A DNA stretch of 64,000 nt from IMG/VR virus record IMGVR_UViG_3300035665_000001, positions 62,001-126,000 of that record. One strand, given 5' to 3'. This stretch comes from a virus. Shown here piece after piece: positions 1,460-58,501 of this stretch (its first letter is position 1; every line of letters begins with the position of its first letter). The position numbers were made by a program, and so were the translations under genes. A model generated the notes under the pieces. That model saw only the letters and a list, made by a program, of their open reading frames with translations, made no database searches and was not told the DNA's origin.

Positions 1460-4400
1460 ATGGAAATTTTGAATGAAAATTTAAACCATTATTTAAATGA
1501 AAATAACAATTACACACCTTTAAATGAAGCTGCTACTCCTATGTGGATGTCTTATATGGATGCGTTTAACGCTTTCATGGAGCAAAGTGGTAAAAGACTA
1601 GATAGATATACCACATATGATGAAATGGATCGGTATCCAGAAATACATTTGGCACTTGATATTATCTCAACAGAAATTTTTGTATTTGATCAAATAGCGA
1701 ATTCACCGTTTTTATTTAACACCAACGGAAAAATACCAGAACCAACATTAAATACATTAATTAAAAAATTTACAGATGTTTTAAAATTAAAAGAAACATT
1801 ACCCTACGCAGTAAGACAAGCATTAAAATATGGTGACAGTTTTTACTTTTTAGTTAAAAACAGTAATGGTAATATGGCTGGTTTAAGACGAATAGATAAC
1901 AAAGATATTGATTTTATCGAATATGATGAAGTAGGTATCGAACCTATGAATTATTACATTTCTAAAAAGAAAGTAGATGAAGCTCAAATGGGTAGTTATT
2001 TAACTTTTCTAAAATATCAAAATTTAGAATCTGCATCACAACAAAAATTAGCTGATGTGGCATCAAAAGATGGTGACGACTTTTATATTATCCAAAGAAA
2101 TCAAATGGTTAGATTTATGAATCATGGTCAAAATTCACAATTTTTTCCATTTGGTGAATCATACTTAGAATCAATTTTTCCATATTGGAAAAAAGTATCA
2201 CTTTTAGAAGATTCATTAATTATTTATAGAATCGTTAGAGCCCCTGAACGTCGAGTTTTTTACATTGATGTTGGTAAAGCACCTGCAAAAATTGCTGAAA
2301 AAGTAGTAATGCAGACAAAAGATGAAATCAAACGCAGAAGAACTGCGGCATCACAGGAAAATCAAGAAATGGGAATTGCCTCATCTTTTAATCCTTTATC
2401 CATGCAGGAGGATTATTTTTTCGCACAGCGTTGCTTATCTTTAGATACAAAAATACCACTTTTGGATGGAAGAACGTTATCTTTACAAGAACTTATAGGT
2501 GAATATACCGATGGTAAGAAAAATTACACTTATTCAGTCGATAGAAACACTGGTAAAATGATTCCAGGTGAAATTGAATGGGCGGGAATTACTAAAAAAG
2601 ATGCTGAGTTGGTTAAAGTTACGCTAGATAATAATGAAGAAATAATTTGTACACCTGATCATAAATTTATTTTGCGGGATGGTAGTTATTGTGAGGCAAA
2701 AGATTTAGACGGTAAAGAATTGATGTCATTGTATGATATTCGGAAATCTTTAGTTGTTGATGAACTCTCTTATAGAGAAGATGTTGGTTGTTTGACAATT
2801 AAAGATTCAGGAGAAAATCATAATTTTGCTATTGCAGCAGGAGTATATGTAAAAAACTCGGATGGGCGAGGATCAAGAGTAGAAACATTGCCTGGAGCGT
2901 GTTTGGCATTGGATACCAAAATACCATTGTTAGACGGTAGAGAATTGATGCTTTCAGAAATTATTGATGAATGGGATAATGATAAAGAAAAAGTTAATTG
3001 GGTTTATTCATGCGATCCACTAACTGGAGAATTAGCACCTGGAAAAATAACTTGGGCTGGCATCACTAGAAAAAATACTCAGGTAATGAAAATTACTTTA
3101 GATAATGGCGAAACAGTAACATGTACCCCAGATCATAAATTCCCTATTAGAGATATTGGTTTTGTTGAAGCTCAAGACTTATCTGTGGGTCAAAGTTTAA
3201 TCCCTTTTAGAAAAAGACTTGAGAAAGTTATGCCAAGAACTAAGGAATATGAACAAGTTTTTGATGTTTCTAAAAATAAGTGGGTATTCACGCATCGTAT
3301 AGTGAGTGAATGTCTACCGACAGAATTTGTTCATAATGTGGAAAAAGAGAAAAAATGCACTGTTCATCATGTAGATTTTAATAGATTTAATAACAATCCT
3401 ACTAACTTAGCTCGAATGAGCAATGATGATCATAGAATTTTACACCAAGATTTGACAGGGTTCGGTAATGAATTTTGGAATAGTATGTCTAAAGACGACT
3501 ATGATAGAATTTGTATGAAAATGTCAGAAGGTATTGCTGAAAAAAGAAAGGATACAAAATATAATGAGACTTTTTTAGAAAAGCAATTAAATGCAGCTAA
3601 AAAAGGTTCTAAAGCGAGAATTACAAAACAGAATTCTGATGGTGAGTTTAAAAAAGCAGTTTATAAAAAATCTGGTGATAGTTTAGCAAAAAGAATTCGT
3701 GATGATAAGGGTTATCAAGAACAGTTGTTAAATCATCTAGCAGATGTGCATCAACCTTGGAAAAATGCTGAAACAGTTTTTGATAGAACCTTGTTGGAAA
3801 TGACAATTTCAAGTATTAAAGAAAATAAAACCAACCATAAAAAAACGATTTTGTATAAATTGAGTACAAATACTGATTTTATGAATCATTTTCAAAAAAT
3901 AAATATTTTTGATGGTGGTGTTGATAAAAGAAAATTAGATACTTTCGGTAATCAACATATGGATAAATTGTTAAAAGAATTTAATTATCAAGGGTGGAGA
4001 GATTTTACAACTACAATTGAAAATTATAACCACAAAATTGTTAAAATCGAAGTATTGGACTATGGTATTGATGTGGGAACGATCACAGTTGATGGTAATG
4101 AAGAAATCCATAATTATCATACATTTGCATTGAGTTCGGGTGTTTTTACAAAAAATTCTAATCTTGGTGAAATTTCTGACGTCAATTACTTCTATAAAAA
4201 ATTAGTTGCAGGTTTAAGAATACCTCCAACCTATTTCAATCCGGAAGCACCACCAACATGGAATGATGGTAAAGTGGGTGCAGCTTTAGCAGAGGAAGCC
4301 AGATTTGGAAAATGGTTGACCGAAATAAGAGAACAATTCTTATGGGATTTTAAAATTTTATTTTTGGATTTCTTAAAAGAAAGAGGGGTCAATTTATTAG

Positions 4401-4627
4401 CAGATGATTTAGATATGCGTTGGAAAGAATCAATCAACGTTGCAGAAAATCAAGAACTGGATAAAATGGCACAGAGACAAACTATTTTCACTGGATTCCC
4501 AATGGAACAATTCTCACCACAATTCCTACAAAAGAAAATTTTAGGTTGGTCGGAAGAAGACATTCAAGAAAATATGACAGCGTTAATAAAATGGCAAAAA
4601 TTTAAGGATAGTAATAATTTAACATAA
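1460..4627 (+). CDS. 20: Portal protein (T4 gp20-like) containing two inteins
   Basis: This is the dodecameric portal vertex through which DNA is packaged and to which the neck attaches. The 1055-residue product contains two in-frame inteins, residues 325-466 and 481-899. Removing them leaves 324 + 14 + 156 = 494 residues, close to T4 gp20 (524). The joined extein reads YFFAQR, then SDGRGSRVETLPGA, then SNLGEISDVNYF, which continues like T4-type portals. The N-terminal extein has the WMSYMDAFNAFMEQSGKRLDRY and DRYPEIHLALDI region expected of gp20. The start is ATG 1460 after AAAGGA. Both inteins have Cys1, a block B TPDH, a terminal Asn and Ser+1, so post-translational excision is expected. 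It is followed by a minus-strand Rep gene rather than by gp67 as in T4. Confidence 0.9.
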   Translation: MEILNENLNHYLNENNNYTPLNEAATPMWMSYMDAFNAFMEQSGKRLDRYTTYDEMDRYPEIHLALDIISTEIFVFDQIANSPFLFNTNGKIPEPTLNTLIKKFTDVLKLKETLPYAVRQALKYGDSFYFLVKNSNGNMAGLRRIDNKDIDFIEYDEVGIEPMNYYISKKKVDEAQMGSYLTFLKYQNLESASQQKLADVASKDGDDFYIIQRNQMVRFMNHGQNSQFFPFGESYLESIFPYWKKVSLLEDSLIIYRIVRAPERRVFYIDVGKAPAKIAEKVVMQTKDEIKRRRTAASQENQEMGIASSFNPLSMQEDYFFAQRCLSLDTKIPLLDGRTLSLQELIGEYTDGKKNYTYSVDRNTGKMIPGEIEWAGITKKDAELVKVTLDNNEEIICTPDHKFILRDGSYCEAKDLDGKELMSLYDIRKSLVVDELSYREDVGCLTIKDSGENHNFAIAAGVYVKNSDGRGSRVETLPGACLALDTKIPLLDGRELMLSEIIDEWDNDKEKVNWVYSCDPLTGELAPGKITWAGITRKNTQVMKITLDNGETVTCTPDHKFPIRDIGFVEAQDLSVGQSLIPFRKRLEKVMPRTKEYEQVFDVSKNKWVFTHRIVSECLPTEFVHNVEKEKKCTVHHVDFNRFNNNPTNLARMSNDDHRILHQDLTGFGNEFWNSMSKDDYDRICMKMSEGIAEKRKDTKYNETFLEKQLNAAKKGSKARITKQNSDGEFKKAVYKKSGDSLAKRIRDDKGYQEQLLNHLADVHQPWKNAETVFDRTLLEMTISSIKENKTNHKKTILYKLSTNTDFMNHFQKINIFDGGVDKRKLDTFGNQHMDKLLKEFNYQGWRDFTTTIENYNHKIVKIEVLDYGIDVGTITVDGNEEIHNYHTFALSSGVFTKNSNLGEISDVNYFYKKLVAGLRIPPTYFNPEAPPTWNDGKVGAALAEEARFGKWLTEIREQFLWDFKILFLDFLKERGVNLLADDLDMRWKESINVAENQELDKMAQRQTIFTGFPMEQFSPQFLQKKILGWSEEDIQENMTALIKWQKFKDSNNLT
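2432..2857 (+). other. Intein 1 of the portal gene (mini-intein, 142 aa)
   Basis: The splicing element occupies residues 325-466 of the portal ORF. It starts with CLSLDTKIPLLDG (block A, Cys1) and has CTPDHKF (block B, TxxH). It ends GENHNFAIAAGVYVKN, followed by Ser+1 of the extein. There is no room for a homing endonuclease domain, so it is a mini-intein. The penultimate residue is Lys, not the usual His. Its first 100 residues are clearly similar to those of the second intein 42 bases downstream, which suggests the two are close paralogues. Confidence 0.9.
2900..4156 (+). other. Intein 2 of the portal gene with HNH-type homing endonuclease domain (419 aa)
   Basis: The element occupies residues 481-899 of the portal ORF. 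It starts CLALDTKIPLLDG, has CTPDHKF in block B, and ends NYHTFALSSGVFTKN before Ser+1. Between the splicing blocks lies about 280 residues, including CTVHHVDFNRFNNNPTNL near residue 633. That is an HNH-type endonuclease core (His-His, Asn, and a later DDHRILHQ). This domain could drive homing into intein-free portal alleles. As in intein 1, the penultimate residue is Lys. Only 14 extein residues separate the two inteins. Confidence 0.9.
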
Positions 4628-4650
4628 TTATCACCCAAATATTACTAAGT

Positions 4651-5844
4651 TCAGTCGTCAGATTCATAGTCAATTGAACTTAGTAAATTATTCATTAATT
4701 CAATGGTTTCCATTGGATTCTTAGTGTAAGCGTCATTTGAAAAAACACCTCTAATCAAATATCCATCAATATAAATGAATTGTTCATCACAATCATCCAT
4801 CGTTTTTGCTAATAATTCATAAATTTCATTTCTCACATCTTTGTGAGTATTTTTCAACCACTCATCAATTCTCATTTCAGCATCATATCTTTCTTCATTT
4901 TTATTAATATCAGTTTCAATCCACATTTCCTCATCAATAACTTTATATCCATTTTTCACTAATTTATCCAATTTATTTTTAGATTTACTGTAAAATTTAT
5001 TTGAAGTTATTGTCTGTTGTAGTAAACCAAGTTCTATTAATCTTGATTCCGGTTGTTTGGTTATATTGAATTTAACTTTAGTTACATTCGCCCTACCACC
5101 ATCCAATCGTTCTTTTATAGGTTCATATGTTACCCGAATATCGGATTTATCATTTATTTCATTTATCGCCTTTTTTAAAATGTCATTGTTGAAGTACGCA
5201 AATTTTTTATTTCTTTCAGAATTGGAATTTAATAAACCTAATACTAAATCATAATCGATGGTTTTAGTTTTTATATTTTCATAATCTTTGAGTAATTCAT
5301 ACAGCAATTTAGTTTGCTTCAATTGTAACGAATATTGAATTGATAAGTGCATTTTTGAAAAATAATTTTTAACATTCAAAACCATACCAATAATTTCACC
5401 ATCTATGAGCAGACTAACCCTTTGACGTTTTTCATATTTGTTACTGATAACCGATACCTTATGAACAAACGATGTGTATGATTTTACCAAATCTTTATTT
5501 TTTTGTAAAACATTTATCTTTACCTCCTTCATTCGTAAATCTCTAAGATGTCTGATAATAGATTCAAAATTACCGGAATCGTATTTTCCAAACGTTTTTG
5601 CAATATCCTTCAAATCCAAAGTAAGTTTAAATGAGGTTTCTTGATCATAAGGTAAATTATTAGAAATAATACTTTTACGTGACTCATACAAAATATAATT
5701 TATTAGATCAATTTCCATCGATGTTACCGTTGCAGTAATACCCTTACTATTTTCATCATAAAACAAAATTTGACAAAGTTCCGATGGTTTATTGATAGTA
5801 AGTCTTTCAGAAGTTACTAATCTTTTATGTTTTTTTTCTGGCAT
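4651..5844 (-). CDS. Plasmid-type replication initiator (Rep_3/RepB family)
   Basis: The 397-residue protein has the pattern of Rep_3-family initiators, two winged-helix domains that bind iterons and open plasmid origins. The clearest part is residues 165-265: SIQYSLQLKQTKLLYELL, a KTKTIDYDLVLGLL helix, FNNDILKKAINEINDKSDI and then VTYEPIKE with VTKVKFNI. This is the second winged helix of the family. The N-terminal part, around MEIDLINYILYESRK and RHLRDLRMKEV, fits the first domain. A C-terminal acidic tail of about 120 residues is of unknown function. It is transcribed opposite to the flanking virion genes. Its upstream region (5845-6606) contains three 32-bp direct repeats, as expected for an autoregulated iteron origin. 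I know of no equivalent in T4 itself. Confidence 0.8.
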   Translation of the reverse strand: MPEKKHKRLVTSERLTINKPSELCQILFYDENSKGITATVTSMEIDLINYILYESRKSIISNNLPYDQETSFKLTLDLKDIAKTFGKYDSGNFESIIRHLRDLRMKEVKINVLQKNKDLVKSYTSFVHKVSVISNKYEKRQRVSLLIDGEIIGMVLNVKNYFSKMHLSIQYSLQLKQTKLLYELLKDYENIKTKTIDYDLVLGLLNSNSERNKKFAYFNNDILKKAINEINDKSDIRVTYEPIKERLDGGRANVTKVKFNITKQPESRLIELGLLQQTITSNKFYSKSKNKLDKLVKNGYKVIDEEMWIETDINKNEERYDAEMRIDEWLKNTHKDVRNEIYELLAKTMDDCDEQFIYIDGYLIRGVFSNDAYTKNPMETIELMNNLLSSIDYESDD

Positions 5845-5940
5845 ATTATTACTCTTTTTTTGGATTTTATGTAATTTTATTTATACATATTTTACCAAAA
5901 AATAGTAATTTTTGAGGTTTTTTTCGGTCGAAATTTTTAT

Positions 5941-6030
5941 CGGAAAACATAAATGTTCAGTAATTTTCGGGTCGGAAAACATAAAAGTATAGTAATTTTC
6001 GGGTCGGAAAACATAAAAGTATAGTAATTA
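5941..6030. repeat. Three 32-bp direct repeats (iteron-like)
   Basis: Units start with CGGAAAACAT at 5941, 5973 and 6005, an exact 32-bp period (about three helical turns). Units 2 and 3 share CGGAAAACATAAAAGTATAG then TAATT; unit 1 differs in a few central bases (AATGTTCAG). A degenerate further unit may lie just upstream (AGTAATTTTTGAGG near 5903). Their place immediately upstream of the Rep_3 gene fits Rep binding sites. Confidence 0.8.
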
Positions 6031-6052
6031 TTGAAGACCGACACGAAAAAAG

Positions 6053-6068
6053 CCCTTATTAATAAGGC
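6053..6068. repeat. Palindrome GCCCTTATTAATAAGG, first of two related copies
   Basis: The core CTTATTAATAAG is a perfect 12-base palindrome, preceded by CACGAAAAAA. A second copy with the same CACGAAAAAA prefix lies at 6449-6460. The two bracket the 49-bp repeats. They may be protein-binding sites or short hairpins of the putative origin. Confidence 0.6.
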
Positions 6069-6167
6069 GAAAAAACGGATTTTTTTTGTTCTAAAGAATG
6101 ATTTTAAAGAATATAAAGAAGAGCCTCTTGAGGAAAATTGCTTTCAGCAATGAAGAGCAAAAAATTA

Positions 6168-6216
6168 TTGATTTCCTCTGAAAATGAAATCCAAAAATCA
6201 GAGCTTAATTCCATCA
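6168..6216. repeat. 49-bp direct repeat, copy 1 (copy 2 at 6288-6336)
   Basis: The block starting TTGATTTCCTCTGAAAATGA and ending TTAATTCCATCA is identical at 6168-6216 and 6288-6336, offset by exactly 120 bp. Each copy contains an internal inverted repeat, GATTTC...GAAATC. It does not resemble the iterons. Its function is unknown; its position suggests a part of the origin or a recombination remnant. Confidence 0.85.
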
Positions 6217-6287
6217 AGTCCAGAATCAAATTTTGAAAATTATTTTTTTCCAAAAATCAAGAGATGAAAATTAAGATCATATCTTAT

Positions 6288-6336
6288 TTGATTTCCTCTG
6301 AAAATGAAATCCAAAAATCAGAGCTTAATTCCATCA
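6288..6336. repeat. 49-bp direct repeat, copy 2
   Basis: Identical to 6168-6216. The 71 bases between the two copies also contain a partial echo (CCAAAAATCAAGAGATGAAAATTAAG-like DNA near 6250-6275, given here only by its pattern), which suggests older duplications. Confidence 0.85.
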
Positions 6337-6548
6337 TTTAGAATTAAGATTACAAAAGATAGATATTAATATTTTTTTGAAAATATGAACCGAAAAATTA
6401 GCCAAAAAGTCGAATATTCACAAATGACTATTTGGCACGAAAAAACCCCTTATTAATAAGCCATTCTAAAAAGGTCAAAATAAAATTTATTTGGGGGTCA
6501 AATTAAATGACCAGAAAAAACACCAAATTAATAAAAAAAAAGCTGGGT

Positions 6549-6556
6549 TATAAATA
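6549..6556 (+). promoter_or_regulatory. Late promoter TATAAATA for the tail tube gene
   Basis: Exact match to the T4 late promoter consensus TATAAATA, 51 bases before the tail tube start codon. A strong AAGGAG ribosome site lies just before that start. Function is inferred from T4. Confidence 0.6.
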
Positions 6557-6606
6557 ATTAGTACAAAAATATTTAAATATAAATTACCCTTGTAAGGAGA
6601 TATAAA

Positions 6607-7299
6607 ATGGCTACATGGTATAATGGCGACGACACCTATTTGGTAACTGGAAATATTACCGCTGCTGAAGCATACAAAGATTCACTTGCAGTAAATAAAA
6701 GTTTTGGTTCACCTGCATTAAATTTAGTTGGTGATGATGATGTTCATAACGCTGAGGATTTTGAAACCAAATTGGTTCACAGATTCAGAGTTAGATTTGG
6801 TGTTTTCAAACAAATCGGACAACATTTAAAAACTATCACTAAACCAAATGTAACATTTGCAGAAGTGGAAGTTCCAAAATTAAATACAAAAGTATATTTT
6901 GCTGGTAGAAAAACTCAGGATGCTATGAGTATTGAGATTGATGATTCGTTGGATAACGCAGTTGCAAAAGCGACTCAAACTCAATTGCAAAAACAAGCAA
7001 ACTTTGATACATCATTACATGCTAAATCATCTGCTGGATATTTTTTCAATGTAACAGCTGAAGAATTATCAGGTGATGGTACTGCTTTGTTGGCGTGGTA
7101 TTATGATAAATGTGTAGTTATGTCTTGTGATTACGGTACATTGGATTATTCTGATGATGGTGCAACTGCTAACGTAACATTAAGTGTTAGATATGCAAAC
7201 TTTACCACTTGGATTCATGACTTTCAATATGCTTCTGCTAATCCAACTGAAAAAGATCCAACTAATGCACAACCATCTGATCCAGGTTCATGGAAATAG
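6607..7299 (+). CDS. 19: Tail tube protein (T4 gp19-like)
   Basis: The 230-residue protein has the tail-tube pattern. An N-terminal arm is followed by RFRVRFGVFKQIG, then NVTFAEVEVPKLNTKVYFAG, DAMSIEIDDSLDNAV and a terminal strand pair (DYGTLDYSDDGATANVTLSVRY). This matches the order of strands in T4 gp19, whose 163 residues are shorter. It would polymerise into the inner tube of the contractile tail. The start is ATG 6607 with AAGGAG seven bases upstream. A strong terminator follows directly, so it is probably expressed as a single-gene, high-level late transcript. In T4 gene 19 precedes gene 20; here it follows the portal and is separated from it by the Rep cassette. It could instead be a tube paralogue. 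Confidence 0.7.
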   Translation: MATWYNGDDTYLVTGNITAAEAYKDSLAVNKSFGSPALNLVGDDDVHNAEDFETKLVHRFRVRFGVFKQIGQHLKTITKPNVTFAEVEVPKLNTKVYFAGRKTQDAMSIEIDDSLDNAVAKATQTQLQKQANFDTSLHAKSSAGYFFNVTAEELSGDGTALLAWYYDKCVVMSCDYGTLDYSDDGATANVTLSVRYANFTTWIHDFQYASANPTEKDPTNAQPSDPGSWK

Positions 7300-7323
7300 T
7301 TTAACGTTAGTTTTAAAACTTTT

Positions 7324-7357
7324 AAAAGGTGTAGATGTTTTTCTACACCTTTTTTTT
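7324..7357 (+). terminator. Rho-independent terminator after tail tube gene
   Basis: The stem AAAAGGTGTAG / CTACACCTTTT encloses an 8-base loop and runs into eight T residues. It ends the transcript of the tail tube gene. Confidence 0.9.
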
Positions 7358-7396
7358 GCCTTTTTGATTGAAAATGAATAATTAAACTGATATGCT

Positions 7397-7404
7397 CATA
7401 AATA
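7397..7404 (+). promoter_or_regulatory. Late-promoter-like CATAAATA upstream of the head operon
   Basis: One mismatch from TATAAATA, located 73 bases before the gp67-like start and just after the tail tube terminator. It would start the gp67-gp21-gp22 transcript. Confidence 0.45.
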
Positions 7405-7476
7405 AGAATTAAGGGCACTTATTTGTTTTGAAATCAAATAGGCATAATACTAAAAAAATTTTAAAAAGGAGTTCTT

Positions 7477-7731
7477 ATGACAGTAATAAGAAATATGATT
7501 GATGCATTGGCAGATGATGATTTTTCTGGTGCAAGAGAGGCATTGAAAACTACATTAGCACAATACATTAGTGGTACTAATTATGTTTCTAATGCGGATA
7601 TATTTGGTAATCGTTACCACAATCCAAATGATGAATCTGATTTATTAGATTACGATCGTGAATATCAAGTTAATACCGATGCTGGTAATGATGAGGATGA
7701 TGAATATAACAATTATGATGATGAGGATTAA
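7477..7731 (+). CDS. 67: Prohead core protein (T4 gp67-like)
   Basis: A small (84 aa) protein with an N-terminal helix (MTVIRNMIDALADDDFSGAR) and a strongly acidic tail (NDEDDEYNNYDDED). T4 gp67 has the same size (80 aa), the same helix-plus-acidic-tail design and the same place directly before gene 21. It is a prohead core component degraded by the gp21 protease. Only two bases separate it from the gp21 start. Sequence identity is too low to be certain, so the call rests on size, composition and synteny. ATG 7477 has an AAAAGGAG ribosome site. Confidence 0.65.
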   Translation: MTVIRNMIDALADDDFSGAREALKTTLAQYISGTNYVSNADIFGNRYHNPNDESDLLDYDREYQVNTDAGNDEDDEYNNYDDED

Positions 7732-11077: not shown

Positions 11078-12856
11078 ATGGATGAATCAAAAATAATACT
11101 TTACTTGAATCATAAATCAACATTAACTAATCCATCACCTAATAGATTCAAACCGGAAGTGAAAGATTTTTTAGAAAGGTGGAGAACCACCAATGATATT
11201 AGTGAACAGAATGTGAAAATTACTTTCTTTATGTATATTCATAATATTAAAAAAGTCCCATTGTGTGAATATCCAAATTGTACCTCTAATGTAAGATATA
11301 ACACTTATTCAACTGGGTTTTCTGTTGGGTGTTGTCGTGATCATGCACAAAGAGCATCAAATCTTAAAAAGTTTGGTGTTGAGAAACCATTTCAATTATC
11401 CGAAATACGAAAAAAAGTATCAGCTACTTATTTAGAAAAATATGGTAATGTGAATCCATGTATGACTGCAAATTTCACTAAAGTTATGTTGGCTCGGTAT
11501 GGGTCAAAAACTGCAATGCAGTCACCAATTTTAAAGGAACGACTTAGAAAAAATTTAATTGAAAAATATGGTGGGATAGGTAATGCAAGTAAAACAATTT
11601 TTGAAAAACAAAAACAGACGATGATTTCAAAGTTTGGAGTTGAAACTTTTTTCACACATTCGGATTTTAATCATATTGTGATGGATACTTGTTTGGAAAA
11701 ATATGGGGTTGAACACCATTCACAATCTAGTAATGTTAAAGAAAAGAAACGGTTAGTTATGCAATCTCGGTATGGGGTTGATAATTGTGCCCAAATACCC
11801 CATATAGTAGAACGATGGCAACGAGAACGCAAAGAAAAATTATTTGATAATTATTATAATCATTGGATTAAATTTGTTGAGCTTAAATTTGATAAAGATA
11901 ATTTTGTTGATGCAGATAATGATTTGATTTGTATTTGCAAAACGTGTTGTGAGGAATTTGAATTTTCATTAAATAGTGAAAATAATATATATTGTCCTTT
12001 TTGTTCAAAAAATAAATCACTCCTTGAAAGGGAGATCTTTAATTTCATTGCTGATGATGGGAAAGTTTCAAATGACAGAACTATTTTGAATGGTAAGGAA
12101 TTGGATATTTACCTACCCAGTAAAAATGTTGCGATTGAGGTTGATGGGATTTACTGGCATTCGGAATTGAATGGCAAAGGAAAAAATTATCATTTGAGTA
12201 AAACTGCAACATGTTTGGAAAAAGACATTCAATTGATTCATATATTTGAAAATGATTGGATGCAAAAACCTTTAATTGTTAAATCCTTAATTAATACAAT
12301 ATTAGGAAAGTTTGAAAAAACCATATTAACTGAAAAATGTCAGGTTCGAGAAATAACAGTGGAAGAAAAAAATAGTTTTTTGGAAGAGAATCACCTCCGA
12401 GGGATAGATGAATCAACAATACGATTTGGATTATTATGTGAAACTGTGTTACTTTCCGTTATGACATTTATTATTTCAGAAAAATATCAATTTGAATTGA
12501 TTCGGTATTGTACTAAAGTTAATTATGATGTTGTTGATAGTTTTTCAAAATTATGGAATTTCTTTGTGAACACGTATAATCCAAAACAGGTAATTACTTT
12601 TGTTGATAGACGATATAGTAATGGTGATGTTTTTAAACATCACAATTTCACACAAATAGATATTACTTCACCAAAGTACCACTATTTTAAAAATGATTGT
12701 GTTTTAGTAGATGTTGATGAATTCAAAAAAAATAAATTTGAGTGTTTACCAACATTTGATACATCATTAACTGAATGGGAAAATATGCAACTTAATGGAT
12801 ATGATCGAATTTGGGATTGTGGTGAATTAGTTTTTGTGTGGCAATCAATCTCCTAA
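11078..12856 (+). CDS. Free-standing homing endonuclease, EDxHD/Vsr-like family (copy 1)
   Basis: The 592-residue protein has five parts. First is an N-terminal Cys/His cluster (CEYPNC...GCCRDH). Next are about seven 29-residue helical repeats built around 'KKFGV/EKYGV', probable DNA-contact modules. A CxxC...CxxC zinc ribbon follows (CKTC, CPFC, about residues 285-315). The nuclease core is at about 325-390, with ELDIYLP followed by AIEVDGIYWHSE (Glu354, Asp356, His361) and LIHIFENDW. A C-terminal domain completes it. The core resembles the PD-(D/E)xK-derived EDxHD homing nucleases related to Vsr. It is a full-length paralogue of the gene at 56714-58501. It sits directly after the capsid terminator and overlaps the convergent gp4 gene by 12 bases. 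Confidence 0.75.
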   Translation: MDESKIILYLNHKSTLTNPSPNRFKPEVKDFLERWRTTNDISEQNVKITFFMYIHNIKKVPLCEYPNCTSNVRYNTYSTGFSVGCCRDHAQRASNLKKFGVEKPFQLSEIRKKVSATYLEKYGNVNPCMTANFTKVMLARYGSKTAMQSPILKERLRKNLIEKYGGIGNASKTIFEKQKQTMISKFGVETFFTHSDFNHIVMDTCLEKYGVEHHSQSSNVKEKKRLVMQSRYGVDNCAQIPHIVERWQRERKEKLFDNYYNHWIKFVELKFDKDNFVDADNDLICICKTCCEEFEFSLNSENNIYCPFCSKNKSLLEREIFNFIADDGKVSNDRTILNGKELDIYLPSKNVAIEVDGIYWHSELNGKGKNYHLSKTATCLEKDIQLIHIFENDWMQKPLIVKSLINTILGKFEKTILTEKCQVREITVEEKNSFLEENHLRGIDESTIRFGLLCETVLLSVMTFIISEKYQFELIRYCTKVNYDVVDSFSKLWNFFVNTYNPKQVITFVDRRYSNGDVFKHHNFTQIDITSPKYHYFKNDCVLVDVDEFKKNKFECLPTFDTSLTEWENMQLNGYDRIWDCGELVFVWQSIS

Positions 12857-44995: not shown

Positions 44996-46756
44996 ATGGC
45001 TAAACATTATAAGATTGTTAAGAGAAATGGGGAAATCGTTCCCTTGGACATTACAAAAATAAGACAGGTTATTGAATGGGCTGCAGTTGGTTTGGATATA
45101 AATCCCATTGAGTTAGAGTCTAATTTACATATGCGTTTTAGAAATGATATGACTACCAAAGAGATTCAGGAAAATATTATTGATACCGCATTACAGTTAA
45201 CTTCAATAGATTCACCCGATTGGAGAATATTAGCTGCAAGATTAAAACTTATGGATCTATATAAGGATATTAAATTTGAAAAAGGTTATGATACCTTTGG
45301 CTATGATGATTATTTGCGTCATGTCACAACATCCGTAGAACAGGGTTTATATGATGCAGCATTATTATCATTATACACAAATGATGAAATTTCAACTGCT
45401 GGTACATTTTTAGATATGCGTTACGACATGGATTTTGATTATGCTGGTGCTAATATTATGATTCACAGATATTTGATTACCCGCGAAAATTCTCCTTGGG
45501 AATTGCCTCAGGAAGCATTTTTGACTGCCGCAATGTTGATTGAACGATACCAACCAAAAGATATTCGGTTAGATTTGGTTCGAGATACATATGAAAAAAT
45601 GGCAAAAAGAAAATTATCATTGGCCACACCTATGTTGATGAATTTAAGAAAACCATTTGGTAATTTATCATCATGTTTTATTGTTGCATTTGGTGATAGT
45701 AGAGATTCAATCTTTTATGTTTTAGATCAGATTGCAAAAATTAGTAAAAATGGTGGTGGTGTAGGAGTTAATGTTTCGAGAGTGCGGTGTAAAGGATCGT
45801 GGATTAATGGAACACCAAATGCATCTGGTGGGGTAATTCCGTGGATTAGAAATATTAATGATGTTGTTGTTTCTGTAAATCAACAGGGTAAAAGAGCTGG
45901 TGCTGCAACAGTAGCATTGGATTCGTGGCATATGGATATTGAAGATTTCTTAGAACTTCAAACTGAAAATGGTGACCATCGAATGAAAGCATTTGATATT
46001 TTTCCACAGGTGGTATTATCGGATGAATTTATGCGTCGAGTTGAAGCGGATAAATTGTGGACTTTAGTTGATCCTCATGAAATTAAAATTAAATTTGGTG
46101 TGGACATCGCTGAAATATGGGGTACTGAATTTGAAAAATTGTATCAACAAATTGAAAATCTTATTTTTGATCATGGCAAAAAATTCAACGTTGATTTAGA
46201 AAATCTCAGTGTGGAAGATTTTGAAAAAGAGTATAAAGAGTTGTTGATTGGTAAAGATGTTGGAAGTTTAACCGATCACACCTGTTTAAAAATGATTAAA
46301 CGCATTAGTGCAAAAAATCTTTTCAAAACGATTATGAAAACACAGGTTGAAACTGGTATGCCTTACTTGACCTTTAAAGATGCAATGAACAGAGCAAACC
46401 CAAATAAACATGATGGCATGATTGGTAATGGAAATCTGTGTTTATCTGGCGATACTATAGTGAATGCAAGAATTGATGATAGTTTTGTTGATCTAAGAAT
46501 GGAGGAGCTAGTTGAAATTTACAAAGAAAATAAGAATATTTCGGTTAAATCATTTGACCATGAAACTGATACCACAGAATACCAAACTTTAACTGATGCG
46601 TTTTTAACTTATGAAAAATCAAATGTTATGAAATTAACAGATAGTGAAACAGGAAATTATGTTATTTGTACACCAGATCATAAAATTTGGACTGAAAACC
46701 GAGGATATGTACAAGCTAAGGATTTGGTTTCATCTGATCGTCTTAAAATACAATAA
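44996..46756 (+). CDS. nrdA: Ribonucleotide reductase large subunit, fragment 1 of 3, fused to a split N-intein
   Basis: Residues 1-481 are the N-terminal part of a class I NrdA. An ATP-cone comes first (HYKIVKRNGEIVPLDITKIR), then SLATPMLMNLRKPFGNLSSC with the first redox Cys (Cys227, E. coli Cys225). NGGGVGVNVSRVR and the loop ending GNGNL follow; Asn480 corresponds to E. coli Asn437. Residues 482-586 are an N-intein: CLSGDTIVN (block A), ICTPDHKIWTENRGYVQAKDL (block B), end LKIQ. The enzyme reduces ribonucleotides to deoxyribonucleotides for phage DNA synthesis. ATG 44996 has an AAAGGA site. The N-intein resembles the NrdJ-1 split intein type. No NrdB is in the window. Confidence 0.92.
   Translation: MAKHYKIVKRNGEIVPLDITKIRQVIEWAAVGLDINPIELESNLHMRFRNDMTTKEIQENIIDTALQLTSIDSPDWRILAARLKLMDLYKDIKFEKGYDTFGYDDYLRHVTTSVEQGLYDAALLSLYTNDEISTAGTFLDMRYDMDFDYAGANIMIHRYLITRENSPWELPQEAFLTAAMLIERYQPKDIRLDLVRDTYEKMAKRKLSLATPMLMNLRKPFGNLSSCFIVAFGDSRDSIFYVLDQIAKISKNGGGVGVNVSRVRCKGSWINGTPNASGGVIPWIRNINDVVVSVNQQGKRAGAATVALDSWHMDIEDFLELQTENGDHRMKAFDIFPQVVLSDEFMRRVEADKLWTLVDPHEIKIKFGVDIAEIWGTEFEKLYQQIENLIFDHGKKFNVDLENLSVEDFEKEYKELLIGKDVGSLTDHTCLKMIKRISAKNLFKTIMKTQVETGMPYLTFKDAMNRANPNKHDGMIGNGNLCLSGDTIVNARIDDSFVDLRMEELVEIYKENKNISVKSFDHETDTTEYQTLTDAFLTYEKSNVMKLTDSETGNYVICTPDHKIWTENRGYVQAKDLVSSDRLKIQ
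46439..46753 (+). other. Split N-intein 1 (NrdA site before the active-site Cys)
   Basis: 105 residues starting with Cys1 and ending at the stop codon. It contains block B CTPDHKIW. It ends where classical split N-inteins end, directly after the 'VQAKDL...DRL' strand. Its partner is the 33-residue C-intein at 46856-46954. Confidence 0.88.
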
Positions 46757-46855: not shown

Positions 46856-46954
46856 ATGATAGAAATAGAATATTTAAATGTTGAAATTCCAGTTTATGAT
46901 ATAAATGTTAAAAAAAATAACAATTTTTATGCAAATAATATATTGGTGCATAAT
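46856..46954 (+). other. Split C-intein 1 (33 aa)
   Basis: Contains VPVYDINV-type block F (read as IPVYDINVKKNNNFYANN) and block G ILVHN, with penultimate His and terminal Asn, then Cys+1. Length and motifs are those of natural split C-inteins. Confidence 0.88.
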
Positions 46955-47890
46955 TGTCAGGAATCCTATTCAAATTTTAAACCATCAACAGTTTTAGACA
47001 GTAGAATTGAGGAAGCTGATGGAAAATTCAAAATAGTTGGTGAGGTTGATGCTGGTTTAGTGCATGTTTGTAACTTAAATAGTATTAATTTGTCCAACAT
47101 TACCGATAATGATGATTTGAAATCTGTTTGTGAAACCGCTGTTCGTTTATTAGATAATGCTATTGATTTTACTGATGTTCCAATTCGAGAAGGTGAAATT
47201 CACAATAATTTATATAGAACTATTGGTGTTGGTAGTATGGGTTTAGCTGATTATCTTGCAAAAAGACAAATTCAGTATGCTAATTCAACAGAGGTGGTCG
47301 ATGAATTATTTGAAAATATTGCTTACTACACTATTAACGCATCAATCCAATTAGCTAAAAAATTGGGTACATATAAAAAATATGCTGGTTCGGAATGGTC
47401 TAAGGGTTTAATTTTATGTAGAGATAGAGATTGGTTTAAAAATAACACGAAAGATCCCGCAAGATGGATGAAAACTTTTGATGATTTGAAAAAATATGGT
47501 ATTCGCAATAGTCATATTCATATGATTGCACCCAATTGCCAAGATCCGAATAATAAAATCAGAACTAAAAATGGTGTTAAATCTATTTATGATATTTTAG
47601 TCGAACAAGGGTTTGATATTGCTACTATTGAGAACAATGATCCTCATTGGGTAGATTTAAAAACTCCTATTGAGGTTGATACTTTAAATGGTGTGGATGT
47701 TTGTGACCGAATTTGGTTTAATGGAAAACAGGATACCATAAATATTGAATTTGAAGATGGTAATACCTATACTTATACTTTAAATCACAAGTTGTTAGTT
47801 TCTCGAATTGACGGAACGACCGAATGGGTTCGAGTTGATGAGTTGCAAGAAGGTGATGAAATTGTTAATCAAGATGCTGTAATTAATTAG
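46856..47890 (+). CDS. nrdA: Ribonucleotide reductase large subunit, fragment 2 of 3, with C-intein 1 and N-intein 2
   Basis: Residues 1-33 are a C-intein ending NNFYANNILVHN. The extein starts at Cys34, which is both the +1 nucleophile for splicing and the thiyl-radical Cys (E. coli Cys439) in the joined NLCQE. Glu36 equals E. coli Glu441 and Cys72 (LVHVCNLNS) equals Cys462. Extein residues 34-227 end HMIAPN. Residues 228-344 are a second N-intein: CQDPNNKIRTKNG (Cys1), YTLNHKLLVSR (block B), end NQDAVIN. A good AGGAAAG ribosome site precedes ATG 46856. The protein must splice at both ends to form part of a working NrdA. Confidence 0.92.
   Translation: MIEIEYLNVEIPVYDINVKKNNNFYANNILVHNCQESYSNFKPSTVLDSRIEEADGKFKIVGEVDAGLVHVCNLNSINLSNITDNDDLKSVCETAVRLLDNAIDFTDVPIREGEIHNNLYRTIGVGSMGLADYLAKRQIQYANSTEVVDELFENIAYYTINASIQLAKKLGTYKKYAGSEWSKGLILCRDRDWFKNNTKDPARWMKTFDDLKKYGIRNSHIHMIAPNCQDPNNKIRTKNGVKSIYDILVEQGFDIATIENNDPHWVDLKTPIEVDTLNGVDVCDRIWFNGKQDTINIEFEDGNTYTYTLNHKLLVSRIDGTTEWVRVDELQEGDEIVNQDAVIN
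47537..47887 (+). other. Split N-intein 2 (NrdA IAPN site)
   Basis: 117 residues from Cys228 of fragment 2 to its stop. Block A is CQDPNNKIRTKNGVKSIYDI; block B has TYTLNHKLLV with the usual Thr/His pair. Its sequence is distinct from N-intein 1, as expected for two splicing reactions that must not cross-react. Confidence 0.87.
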
Positions 47891-56713: not shown

Positions 56714-58501
56714 ATGATCGCACCTAAAAATATTCAAGGAGAGATTGAAAAATATCTCTCTAAGAAAAATGTCTATTTTGGTAATTTTTCCAATGAATTA
56801 GTAACATTTTTAGAAATTAATTTCCCACACGTTAATACCATCCGAGCAAAATGGTATATGTTTGTTCATGGTATGAATGAATTACCCATTTGTTTGTACC
56901 CATCATGTGAGACGTCTGTTAAATGGAATGAAGGGTTAAAAAAATTTAGTGATGGATGCTGTATTGATCACAATAAAAAAATAACCTCTCTTAAAAATTT
57001 TGGCGTTGACCACCCAAATAAATCTAAAAAACAACAGCGAAAAGTTAAAAAATCGATGCAAGAGAAATACGGTGTCGATTATATTACGCAGACTGATATT
57101 CATAAGACGAGTGTTATGCACAGTGTAATGGAATCTTATGGTGTTGATAATGTATTAAAATCTCCAAAAATTCGAGAAAAGATTAGAAAAACGAATTTGG
57201 AAAAGTATGGTGTCGAGGAATGTATTTCTGCACCTATAATAAGAGAAAAAAGTAAACAGACCAATCTTAAAAAATTTGGTACTGAGTGCAGTTTGTCGTC
57301 TGTTGAAGTTAGGGAAAAGGCATATAAAACGAATTTGTTCAGATATGGTTCAATTTTTCCAATGCGTAATGAAGAATTGTTGGAAAAAAGGTTACAAACT
57401 ATTATTGGTAGATATGATTCGCACGGTGTATTAGGTGATAAGAATATAGCCGATAAAGCTAGAAAAACACATTTTGCTAAATATTATAATAACAAGTTAT
57501 TGAAAAATAAATTTGTATCTCCATTGTTTACCTTAGATGAATATCAGGGTACAAAACGAGTTAAAGATTATAGTTGGGAGTGTAAGAAATGTTATACTGA
57601 ATTTATCGATAATGTTGACAATGGACATCTACCAAGATGCCCCACATGTTTTCCAAAAGATATTAAAGTTTCAAATGATGAATCGTTGTTATTCTCATTG
57701 ATAAATGTTAAAAACAAACTTCAGACTAATAGAGGTCTAATACCAAATTATGAAATTGATATATATTTACCTGATTATAAGACAGGTATAGAGTATAATG
57801 GTATGTTTTGGCATTCTGAAAAAATGGGGGTTGATCAATTTTATCATTTAGATAAAACATTAATGTCAGAAAATTCTGGTATTTTTTTGATTCACATTTT
57901 TGAATCCGAATGGGTAAAGAGAAGGTTACAAACTATAGGAATGGTTCATAGAAATATTGGTATTTTTGATATAATCATATCTATTCAGGACATTGAAATA
58001 AAGGAAATTTCGGATATAATAACCAATGATTTTTTAGAAGCCAACACCATTCATTTATTTGACAGTGTTTCTGAAAAACGAATTGGTGCTTATCATGGTT
58101 TAGAATTAGTTGCCATCATGACAACCAAACAATTTAAAAATAAAACTGTAATTACTAAGTTTTATGAAAAGATGGGTTATGGGTTTGAAGGGAATCTGTT
58201 TCAAAAAATGGTGAATAATTTTGATAATAGTTTACCTATATTTTATTATCCTGATAGACGGTACAATAAAGTTGACCAACAATTTTTATTAGATTGTGGG
58301 TTTACTTTTGAAGGTGGTACTGAACCAGAGTTAATATATAGCCGAAATATGAGTTATATTCCTGCAAATCATATTAATAAACATAACATTTTAAATTACG
58401 TTACTGATTATGATGATAAATTATCTGTTTATGAGAATATGATTGTTAATGGTTATTTAACTATTTGGGATTGTGGAAAATTAGTTTGGAAAAAAAGTTA
58501 G
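56714..58501 (+). CDS. Free-standing homing endonuclease, EDxHD/Vsr-like family (copy 2)
   Basis: The 595-residue protein is a paralogue of the one at 11078-12856 with the same order of parts. An N-terminal CLYPSC...GCCIDH cluster is followed by seven 'KNFGV/EKYGV' repeats and a zinc ribbon (CKKC, CPTC). The nuclease core then follows: NYEIDIYLPDYKTGIEYNGM-FWHSE with Glu360 and His367, then FLIHIFESEW. The Asp of copy 1 (Asp356) is Asn362 here. It begins 16 bases after the topoisomerase fragment with no ribosome site, so it may be translated by coupling. Being next to a gene broken by a split intein fits the reported link between this nuclease class and fractured genes. Confidence 0.75.
   Translation: MIAPKNIQGEIEKYLSKKNVYFGNFSNELVTFLEINFPHVNTIRAKWYMFVHGMNELPICLYPSCETSVKWNEGLKKFSDGCCIDHNKKITSLKNFGVDHPNKSKKQQRKVKKSMQEKYGVDYITQTDIHKTSVMHSVMESYGVDNVLKSPKIREKIRKTNLEKYGVEECISAPIIREKSKQTNLKKFGTECSLSSVEVREKAYKTNLFRYGSIFPMRNEELLEKRLQTIIGRYDSHGVLGDKNIADKARKTHFAKYYNNKLLKNKFVSPLFTLDEYQGTKRVKDYSWECKKCYTEFIDNVDNGHLPRCPTCFPKDIKVSNDESLLFSLINVKNKLQTNRGLIPNYEIDIYLPDYKTGIEYNGMFWHSEKMGVDQFYHLDKTLMSENSGIFLIHIFESEWVKRRLQTIGMVHRNIGIFDIIISIQDIEIKEISDIITNDFLEANTIHLFDSVSEKRIGAYHGLELVAIMTTKQFKNKTVITKFYEKMGYGFEGNLFQKMVNNFDNSLPIFYYPDRRYNKVDQQFLLDCGFTFEGGTEPELIYSRNMSYIPANHINKHNILNYVTDYDDKLSVYENMIVNGYLTIWDCGKLVWKKS

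Follow-up and report, generated by a model that had tools for sequence, protein, structure and literature searches.

A plasmid-type Rep_3 initiator gene and phased iterons as the candidate main replication origin of a T4-like jumbo phage

Genes and repeats between the portal and tail tube genes

The window analysed here is a stretch of 64,000 nucleotides, positions 62001-126000 of the 306,333-base IMG/VR record IMGVR_UViG_3300035665_000001 (G000), which we compared with the records G002, G004, G005 (290 kb), G007 (172 kb) and G008; all of the evidence comes from sequence. G000 carries T4-type head genes (Pfam matches: Portal_T4, 7.7e-63; Gp23, 6.7e-80; Peptidase_S77, 3.3e-34) and T4-type tail genes; its MCP stands at ~33% against jumbo T4-likes.

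Between the genes for portal (gp20) and tail tube (gp19) lies rep1, antisense to both of these late genes, as an earlier note on this DNA had pointed out (Table 1). Together, rep1 and its upstream DNA separate the two late genes by 1,979 nt, whereas in G005, G004 and G007 the same gap is only 78-84 nt; these empty sites in the relatives bear out the note's claim that the module was inserted here. The note had also remarked that the order of genes 20 and 19 is reversed relative to T4. The reversal holds but was not caused by rep: because genes 20 and 19 are adjacent in the relatives, the order is the lineage's own. The insert consists of rep and ori alone: genes for an integrase, packaging or capsid interference are absent between gp20 and gp19. 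The late-promoter-like octamer TATAAATA is retained on the gp19 side of the insertion. The portal gene is itself interrupted; the second of its intein-like segments contains an HNH endonuclease, and the portals of the relatives are uninterrupted, at ~495 aa.

Table 1. Features of the rep1 locus and its flanks (window coordinates)
Feature	Position	Strand	Basis
Portal gp20, interrupted by two intein-like segments	1460..4627	+	Portal_T4 7.7e-63, Intein_splicing
rep1, Rep_3 (WH1-WH2) replication initiator, 397 aa	4651..5844	-	Pfam Rep3_N/Rep3_C; AF2 model
Inverted iteron copy over rep1 5' end, operator-like	5811..5835	+	23-nt arms 87% complementary to iterons; 18/23
Least stable 50-bp duplex in 1.5 kb, candidate unwinding element and/or rep promoter	5864..5913		Nearest-neighbour stability
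Iteron 1 (32 bp)	5940..5971	-	Repeat search and shuffle test
Iteron 2 (32 bp)	5972..6003	-	Repeat search and shuffle test
Iteron 3, only a partial match in its last part	6004..6035	-	Repeat search and shuffle test
Conserved origin-associated element, two ATTCTTTA motifs (6092-6099, 6105-6112)	6028..6129	-	Match at rep2
Terminator-like hairpin GCCTTATTAATAAGGGC-TTTTTT, within the element common to rep2	6052..6068	-	1 found, 0.4 expected
68-nt repeat, copy 1	6149..6216		Repeat search
68-nt repeat, copy 2 (88%), copies 120 bp apart	6269..6336		Repeat search
TATAAATA, T4-type late-promoter-like octamer of tail tube gene	6549..6556	+	Sequence; G005 has matching leader
Tail tube gp19	6607..7299	+	phrog_4542 tail tube 8.5e-27

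The three repeats previously described upstream of rep lie in exact phase at 5940-6035, with start-to-start distances of 32 and 32, and the regularity of this upstream DNA beat 300 of 300 dinucleotide shuffles in an autocorrelation test. A further copy, in inverted orientation, covers the start of rep1, and its 18/23 match was equalled by none of 500 shuffles. Plasmid Rep_3 genes (RepE, pi) repress themselves through an inverted iteron copy of this kind at the rep start, and by analogy we infer that 5811-5835 is an operator-like site for autoregulation. Between the iterons and the rep1 start sits the least stable duplex of the region. At three related loci treated below (L009, L010 and L015) the least stable stretch falls at the same place (-60 to -75), so that overall it lies between the iterons and the rep start in four of five loci.

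On the far side of the iterons, the 102-nt element at 6028-6129 has its sole other match in the 306-kb record at the same relative place upstream of a second rep gene, rep2 (77%, E 1.5e-12). We considered its ATTCTTTA motifs as an unwinding element and rejected them: duplex stability there is unremarkable (46th-82nd percentile), and the lowest stability is found between the iterons and rep. The upstream DNA is A+T-rich and holds further repeats, as the note had stated, namely the two 68-nt copies and three copies of a 25-nt GAAAAAACCCCTTATTAATAAG element (at 6042, 6436 and 6511); the 68-nt pair and the GAAAAAACCCCTTATTAATAAG repeats possibly mark a small transcript with terminators. A search for DnaA boxes with up to one mismatch to TTATCCACA found none at rep1 and a single site, with one mismatch, at rep2; the need for DnaA at plasmid origins varies with the host (PMC4980987). 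An Rfam scan of window positions 4500-7500 returned nothing.

The Rep protein, its second copy and its relatives

Both winged-helix domains of Rep1 scored above the curated Pfam cut-offs (Rep3_N, WH1: E 1.4e-7, 32.5 bits against 22.4; Rep3_C, WH2: E 3.1e-10, 40.6 bits against 21.1), and PHROGs likewise calls the protein a replication initiation protein. We modelled Rep1 with AlphaFold2 from nine phage homologues (mean pLDDT 72.7). The model matched the F-plasmid initiator RepE54 bound to iteron DNA with Z 21.9 (rmsd 2.5 A over 210 residues), with lower scores for the R6K pi protein (Z 16.9) and for the initiator of Vibrio chromosome 2, RctB (Z 10.4). Residues ~13-266 thus form a RepE-like two-winged-helix part with the fold of RepE54 and pi. 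Searching PDB sequences with phmmer gave no match to Rep1; the kinship came from the comparison of folds. Going by profiles and model, Rep1 is a true Rep_3 initiator of the RepE fold.

Residues 263-397 form a conserved, phage-specific C-terminal domain that lies outside the matches to RepE54, pi and RctB. It has no Pfam match and, when predicted alone by AlphaFold2, gave a poor model (pLDDT 47). The proteins encoded by rep1 and rep2 are 50% identical over their whole length, 35% in WH1 and 69% in the C-terminal domain, a distribution from which we infer that DNA specificity diverges among the Reps whilst a partner-binding part is held constant.

The second gene, rep2 (G000:185781-186956, + strand), has iterons of its own, TTCATTTTCTATTGGGA, which are spaced ~31 bp apart and differ from those of rep1. 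Their core ATTTTCTATTGGG occurs five times in G000, each time at rep2 (reversed control, 0), and a perfect 33-nt inverted iteron copy covers the rep2 start. In the shuffle test for inverted copies, rep2 (17/17) and L010 (14/17) were each equalled by 0 of 500 shuffles; L009 showed no such operator copy.

The Rep family was found on seven further IMG/VR contigs, in different jumbo phages. Two ATTCTTTA motifs lie 276-311 nt upstream of the rep start in L009, L010 and L015 (the last of these in G008). The arrays of L009 and L010 have a 32-bp period and a sequence that differs in each phage, and that of L015 is mixed (22/32/30 bp). Iteron sequences vary, and four or five modules retain the ~32-bp phase and the flanking element. 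The reps of a second group, clade B (L012, which is the rep of G005, with L011, L013 and L014), have ~26-nt copies ~90 bp apart and a half copy near the start; these repeats showed no significant phasing in the shuffle test. A further Rep_3-type protein, only distantly similar (~24% identity), is encoded in L015 (L015:15086-16306, G008 ~211-212 kb), ~7 kb from the first rep and on the opposite strand. The Rep tree gave no settled branching among rep1, rep2, L009, L010 and L015, and so duplication and separate acquisition of rep1 and rep2 both stand. Taken together, the profiles, fold, phased repeats, operator-like copy, second copy with different iterons and comparative anatomy uphold the original description of a Rep_3 initiator with an iteron origin.

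Searches of 50,697 phage records, and pattern and tblastn searches of 72,556 plasmids and 84,980 bacterial or archaeal genomes, found no close relatives of these Reps; the search for homologues on plasmids that the earlier note had called for yielded nothing beyond ~30% partial matches. This result bears on the note's suggestion of a phage-plasmid state, in which the module would mainly keep a low-copy extrachromosomal genome (in a carrier or lysogenic condition, segregated by an actin-like protein, ALP), leaving lytic replication to T4-type means. The Rep/iteron/operator anatomy does resemble that of low-copy plasmids, and a plasmid replication gene does reside in a phage genome. G000 also has an ALP/ParM-type actin gene (G000:266.6-267.6 kb; L050:9581-10552), with another in G008, and a match to the phrog_691 'partition protein'; an actin-like gene of this kind makes a plasmid-like carrier state conceivable. 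Against this, resident copies might be expected among the bacterial and archaeal genomes and plasmids, where only the partial matches appeared. Actin-like genes occur in lytic phages too, and G002, G005 and G007 had no ALP match (these records may be incomplete). A resident form could still be missing from these collections. We regard a module devoted mainly to plasmid-like maintenance as unlikely, and the suggestion as it was made as possible but unsupported.

Strand skew and the site of initiation

We took strand skew from fourfold-degenerate sites, entering gene strand as a covariate, and compared the likelihood ratio (LR) of each change point with permutations of gene order. In G000 the best change point had a total LR of 174-178, against a maximum of 45 in 200 permutations, with support at 63-70 kb; rep1 and its iterons occupy 66.65-68.61 kb, inside this interval. 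The + strand is G/T-rich to the right of the switch and C/A-rich to the left, with plus and minus genes in agreement. Plus genes alone switched at 63 kb (support 46-65), minus genes at 67.5 kb, and the plus genes within 44-125 kb alone at 65.5 kb. The GC component alone peaked at 48 kb (bootstrap 46-68 kb), and the position of the switch therefore rests mainly on the AT component.

Switches also coincided with rep in two relatives: at 119 kb in G005 (rep at 118.1-119.4 kb; LR 77.5 against a permutation maximum of 52.6) and at 133 kb in G007 (rep at 132.2-133.5 kb; LR 33.1 against 18.1). Since G005 and G007 are closely related (96% identity in Rep), G000 and this pair amount to about two independent cases. 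In all three the polarity is of the origin type, with a leading-strand-like G/T excess pointing outward. G002 showed no origin-type switch (a weak change of opposite sign lies 6 kb from its rep), G008 showed none beyond chance, and G004 is uninformative because strand and position are fully confounded. An origin at rep2 was considered and rejected by the same measure, there being no switch at that gene. The best second change point in G000, at 145-172 kb, is seen in AT only, merely weakens the skew and is not at rep2. A terminus near 220 kb, to be expected were G000 circular, was not seen.

The relatives provide a natural relocation. G000 1-124 kb is collinear, in inverted orientation, with G005 154-53 kb (capsid protein 83%, portal 76%). 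The reps of G005, G004 and G007 are divergent members of clade B, and that of G005 lies at a boundary homologous to ~44.4 kb in G000, where G000 has no rep. If the origin follows rep, the replication polarity of the orthologues at 44.4-66 kb should be reversed between G000 and the relatives, and this was observed. Using a leading-strand index (G+T minus C+A) for the intervals left of, between and right of the two origin sites, we obtained -0.16/-0.03/+0.16 for G000 and -0.06/+0.06/+0.05 for G005. Relative to the right interval, the between interval was shifted in G000 compared with each relative (permutation p of 0.0002 for G005, 0.0014 for G007 and 0.0016 for G004); relative to the left interval there was no difference (p of 0.98, 0.82 and 0.65, respectively). 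As the genes and their orientations are identical, transcription is not the cause of the change in polarity. The intermediate value of the between interval in G000 would fit an origin that moved some time ago.

Could the switch sit at rep by coincidence, owing to gene orientation, gene class or imported DNA? The G005 switch does fall at a change of the main gene direction, and the confounding in G004 is complete. However, gene strand was a covariate, plus and minus genes of G000 agree in sign, the G000 genes flanking rep1 share one direction, and the same orthologues are opposite in polarity in G000 and the relatives according to the position of rep. Coincidence is consequently a rather improbable explanation.

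We therefore favour a reading in which this T4-like jumbo phage has its main bidirectional origin in the module at 4651-6130, an exchangeable cassette working in the manner of F/pSC101-type iteron origins; judged on sequence evidence, this has a probability of roughly 0.75. It modifies the proposal that a Rep/iteron module could supply a second initiation mode: the role in initiation stands, but the skew places rep1 at the main long-term bidirectional origin and not in a side device.

Two further readings fare poorly. Were rep1 and rep2 the remnants of small inserted replicons, that is a captured satellite or parasite, dispensable whether firing or not, then two copies at non-orthologous places in G000, an empty gp20-gp19 site in the relatives and a Rep family spread over different jumbo phages would all be unsurprising. 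The insert carries only rep and ori, though, without an integrase, packaging or capsid-interference gene, and skew across the whole genome centres on rep1, as it does on the reps of the relatives, a pattern that an idle passenger would not yield; we think this origin of the module very unlikely, and the satellite suggested earlier is not favoured. Least probable of all is that the Rep fold belongs to an ordinary winged-helix regulator, named beforehand as the finding that would undo the origin reading, which only represses itself or neighbouring late genes or excludes related phages via their iterons (incompatibility): the inverted copy over the rep1 start and the antisense position among late genes would fit, but a repressor would not need three phased direct iterons, a shared flanking element and a skew switch. 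Rep1 has also kept its two winged-helix domains, and its C-terminal domain is well conserved; the anatomy of the locus does not point to an ordinary regulator.

Possible working of the module and its known counterparts

In the origin reading, Rep1 monomers would bind the three phased iterons and the nearby A+T-rich DNA at 5864-5913 would melt. A phage or host helicase would then be loaded, probably via the conserved C-terminal domain, and forks would run both ways from the module. Rep1 would also occupy the inverted copy at the start of its gene and thereby repress rep1. The replication genes of G000 include a family B polymerase, a UvsX-like recombinase, SSB, gp46/gp47-like nucleases and a UvrD-type helicase; Pfam found no DnaB_C helicase in G000, where a divergent helicase is possible. 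Because T4-type recombination genes (UvsX, gp46/47-like) are present, a recombination-dependent route probably exists beside initiation by Rep and follows it. In G000 the module appears to have been replaced or relocated to the gp20-gp19 site, perhaps in that direction, and the start of replication would have moved with it.

A broader proposal, for which we consider the odds even, is that T4-like jumbo phages use Rep-iteron cassettes as master origins that can be interchanged. Such cassettes would spread between unrelated giant phages, with iteron specificity diversifying (winged helix ~35%) and the replisome-facing C-terminal domain being kept (~70%). A landing cassette would reset the replication map and, over time, strand composition, and two cassettes that do not cross-react could coexist in one phage.

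The module resembles F ori2/RepE and pSC101-type origins in its WH1-WH2 fold, in the order of iterons, promoter/inverted operator and rep, and in its helix-phased direct repeats. It differs from them in the iteron period (31-32 bp here, about three helical turns; F-type plasmids usually have ~22 bp), in the extra C-terminal domain of Rep1 (about 130-135 aa), in the lack of a clear DnaA box and in its setting, a phage of 306 kb whose head and tail genes are of T4 type. Phage P1 likewise carries a plasmid-type iteron initiator, RepA with its ori, which serves prophage maintenance beside a separate lytic replicon; in the present T4-like jumbo phage, for which no prophage state is known, the skew instead points to the Rep site as the main origin over the long term. 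With T4 itself G000 shares the late genes 20, 19, 21, 22 and 23, UvsX, gp46/47-like proteins and the family B polymerase. T4 initiates from RNA-primed R-loop origins and by recombination, and it is not known to have a Rep_3 protein or iterons. RctB, the structural relative with Z 10.4, is also an iteron initiator of a large replicon, but it serves a bacterial chromosome and has different accessory domains.

Closer to phage infection is the PLE satellite, whose RepA/iteron origin is a plasmid-type initiator with iterons active during infection by phage ICP1, which itself replicates bidirectionally from one origin (PMC7145576). Unlike Rep1, PLE RepA is of the RepA_N family, not Rep_3, and is borne by the satellite rather than the phage (PMC7145576). 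In about 30% of huge phages the skew points to bidirectional replication (Al-Shayeb et al. 2020, PMC7162821); the portion of that paper drawn on here names no initiator or iteron locus as the origin, and we propose one. Within the open-licence literature, the portions drawn on of the jumbo-phage overview PMC7824862 and of PMC13282480 and PMC13037316 mention no iterons or replication origins, which does not prove priority.

The novelty would lie in the setting, in that a T4-like jumbo phage of lytic type has a replaceable cassette as its apparent main origin; the initiator belongs to the known Rep_3 family. In two lineages the skew switch is linked to a particular protein and DNA site, with the natural relocation as an internal control, and initiation in T4-like jumbo phages becomes directly testable. 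The module also links the replication biology of plasmids with that of lytic phages, and the combination of a Rep_3 gene, ~32-bp iterons and a skew switch offers a signature for origins in uncultured giant phages.

Elsewhere in the window, the large subunit of ribonucleotide reductase is split over two ORFs (44996-46753 and 46856-47887), with an intein N-part at the end of the first and an intein C-part at the start of the second, which resembles a split or interrupted intein. DUF7487 proteins are encoded at 11078-12856 and 56714-58498, and many further homing-endonuclease-like ORFs occur elsewhere in G000.
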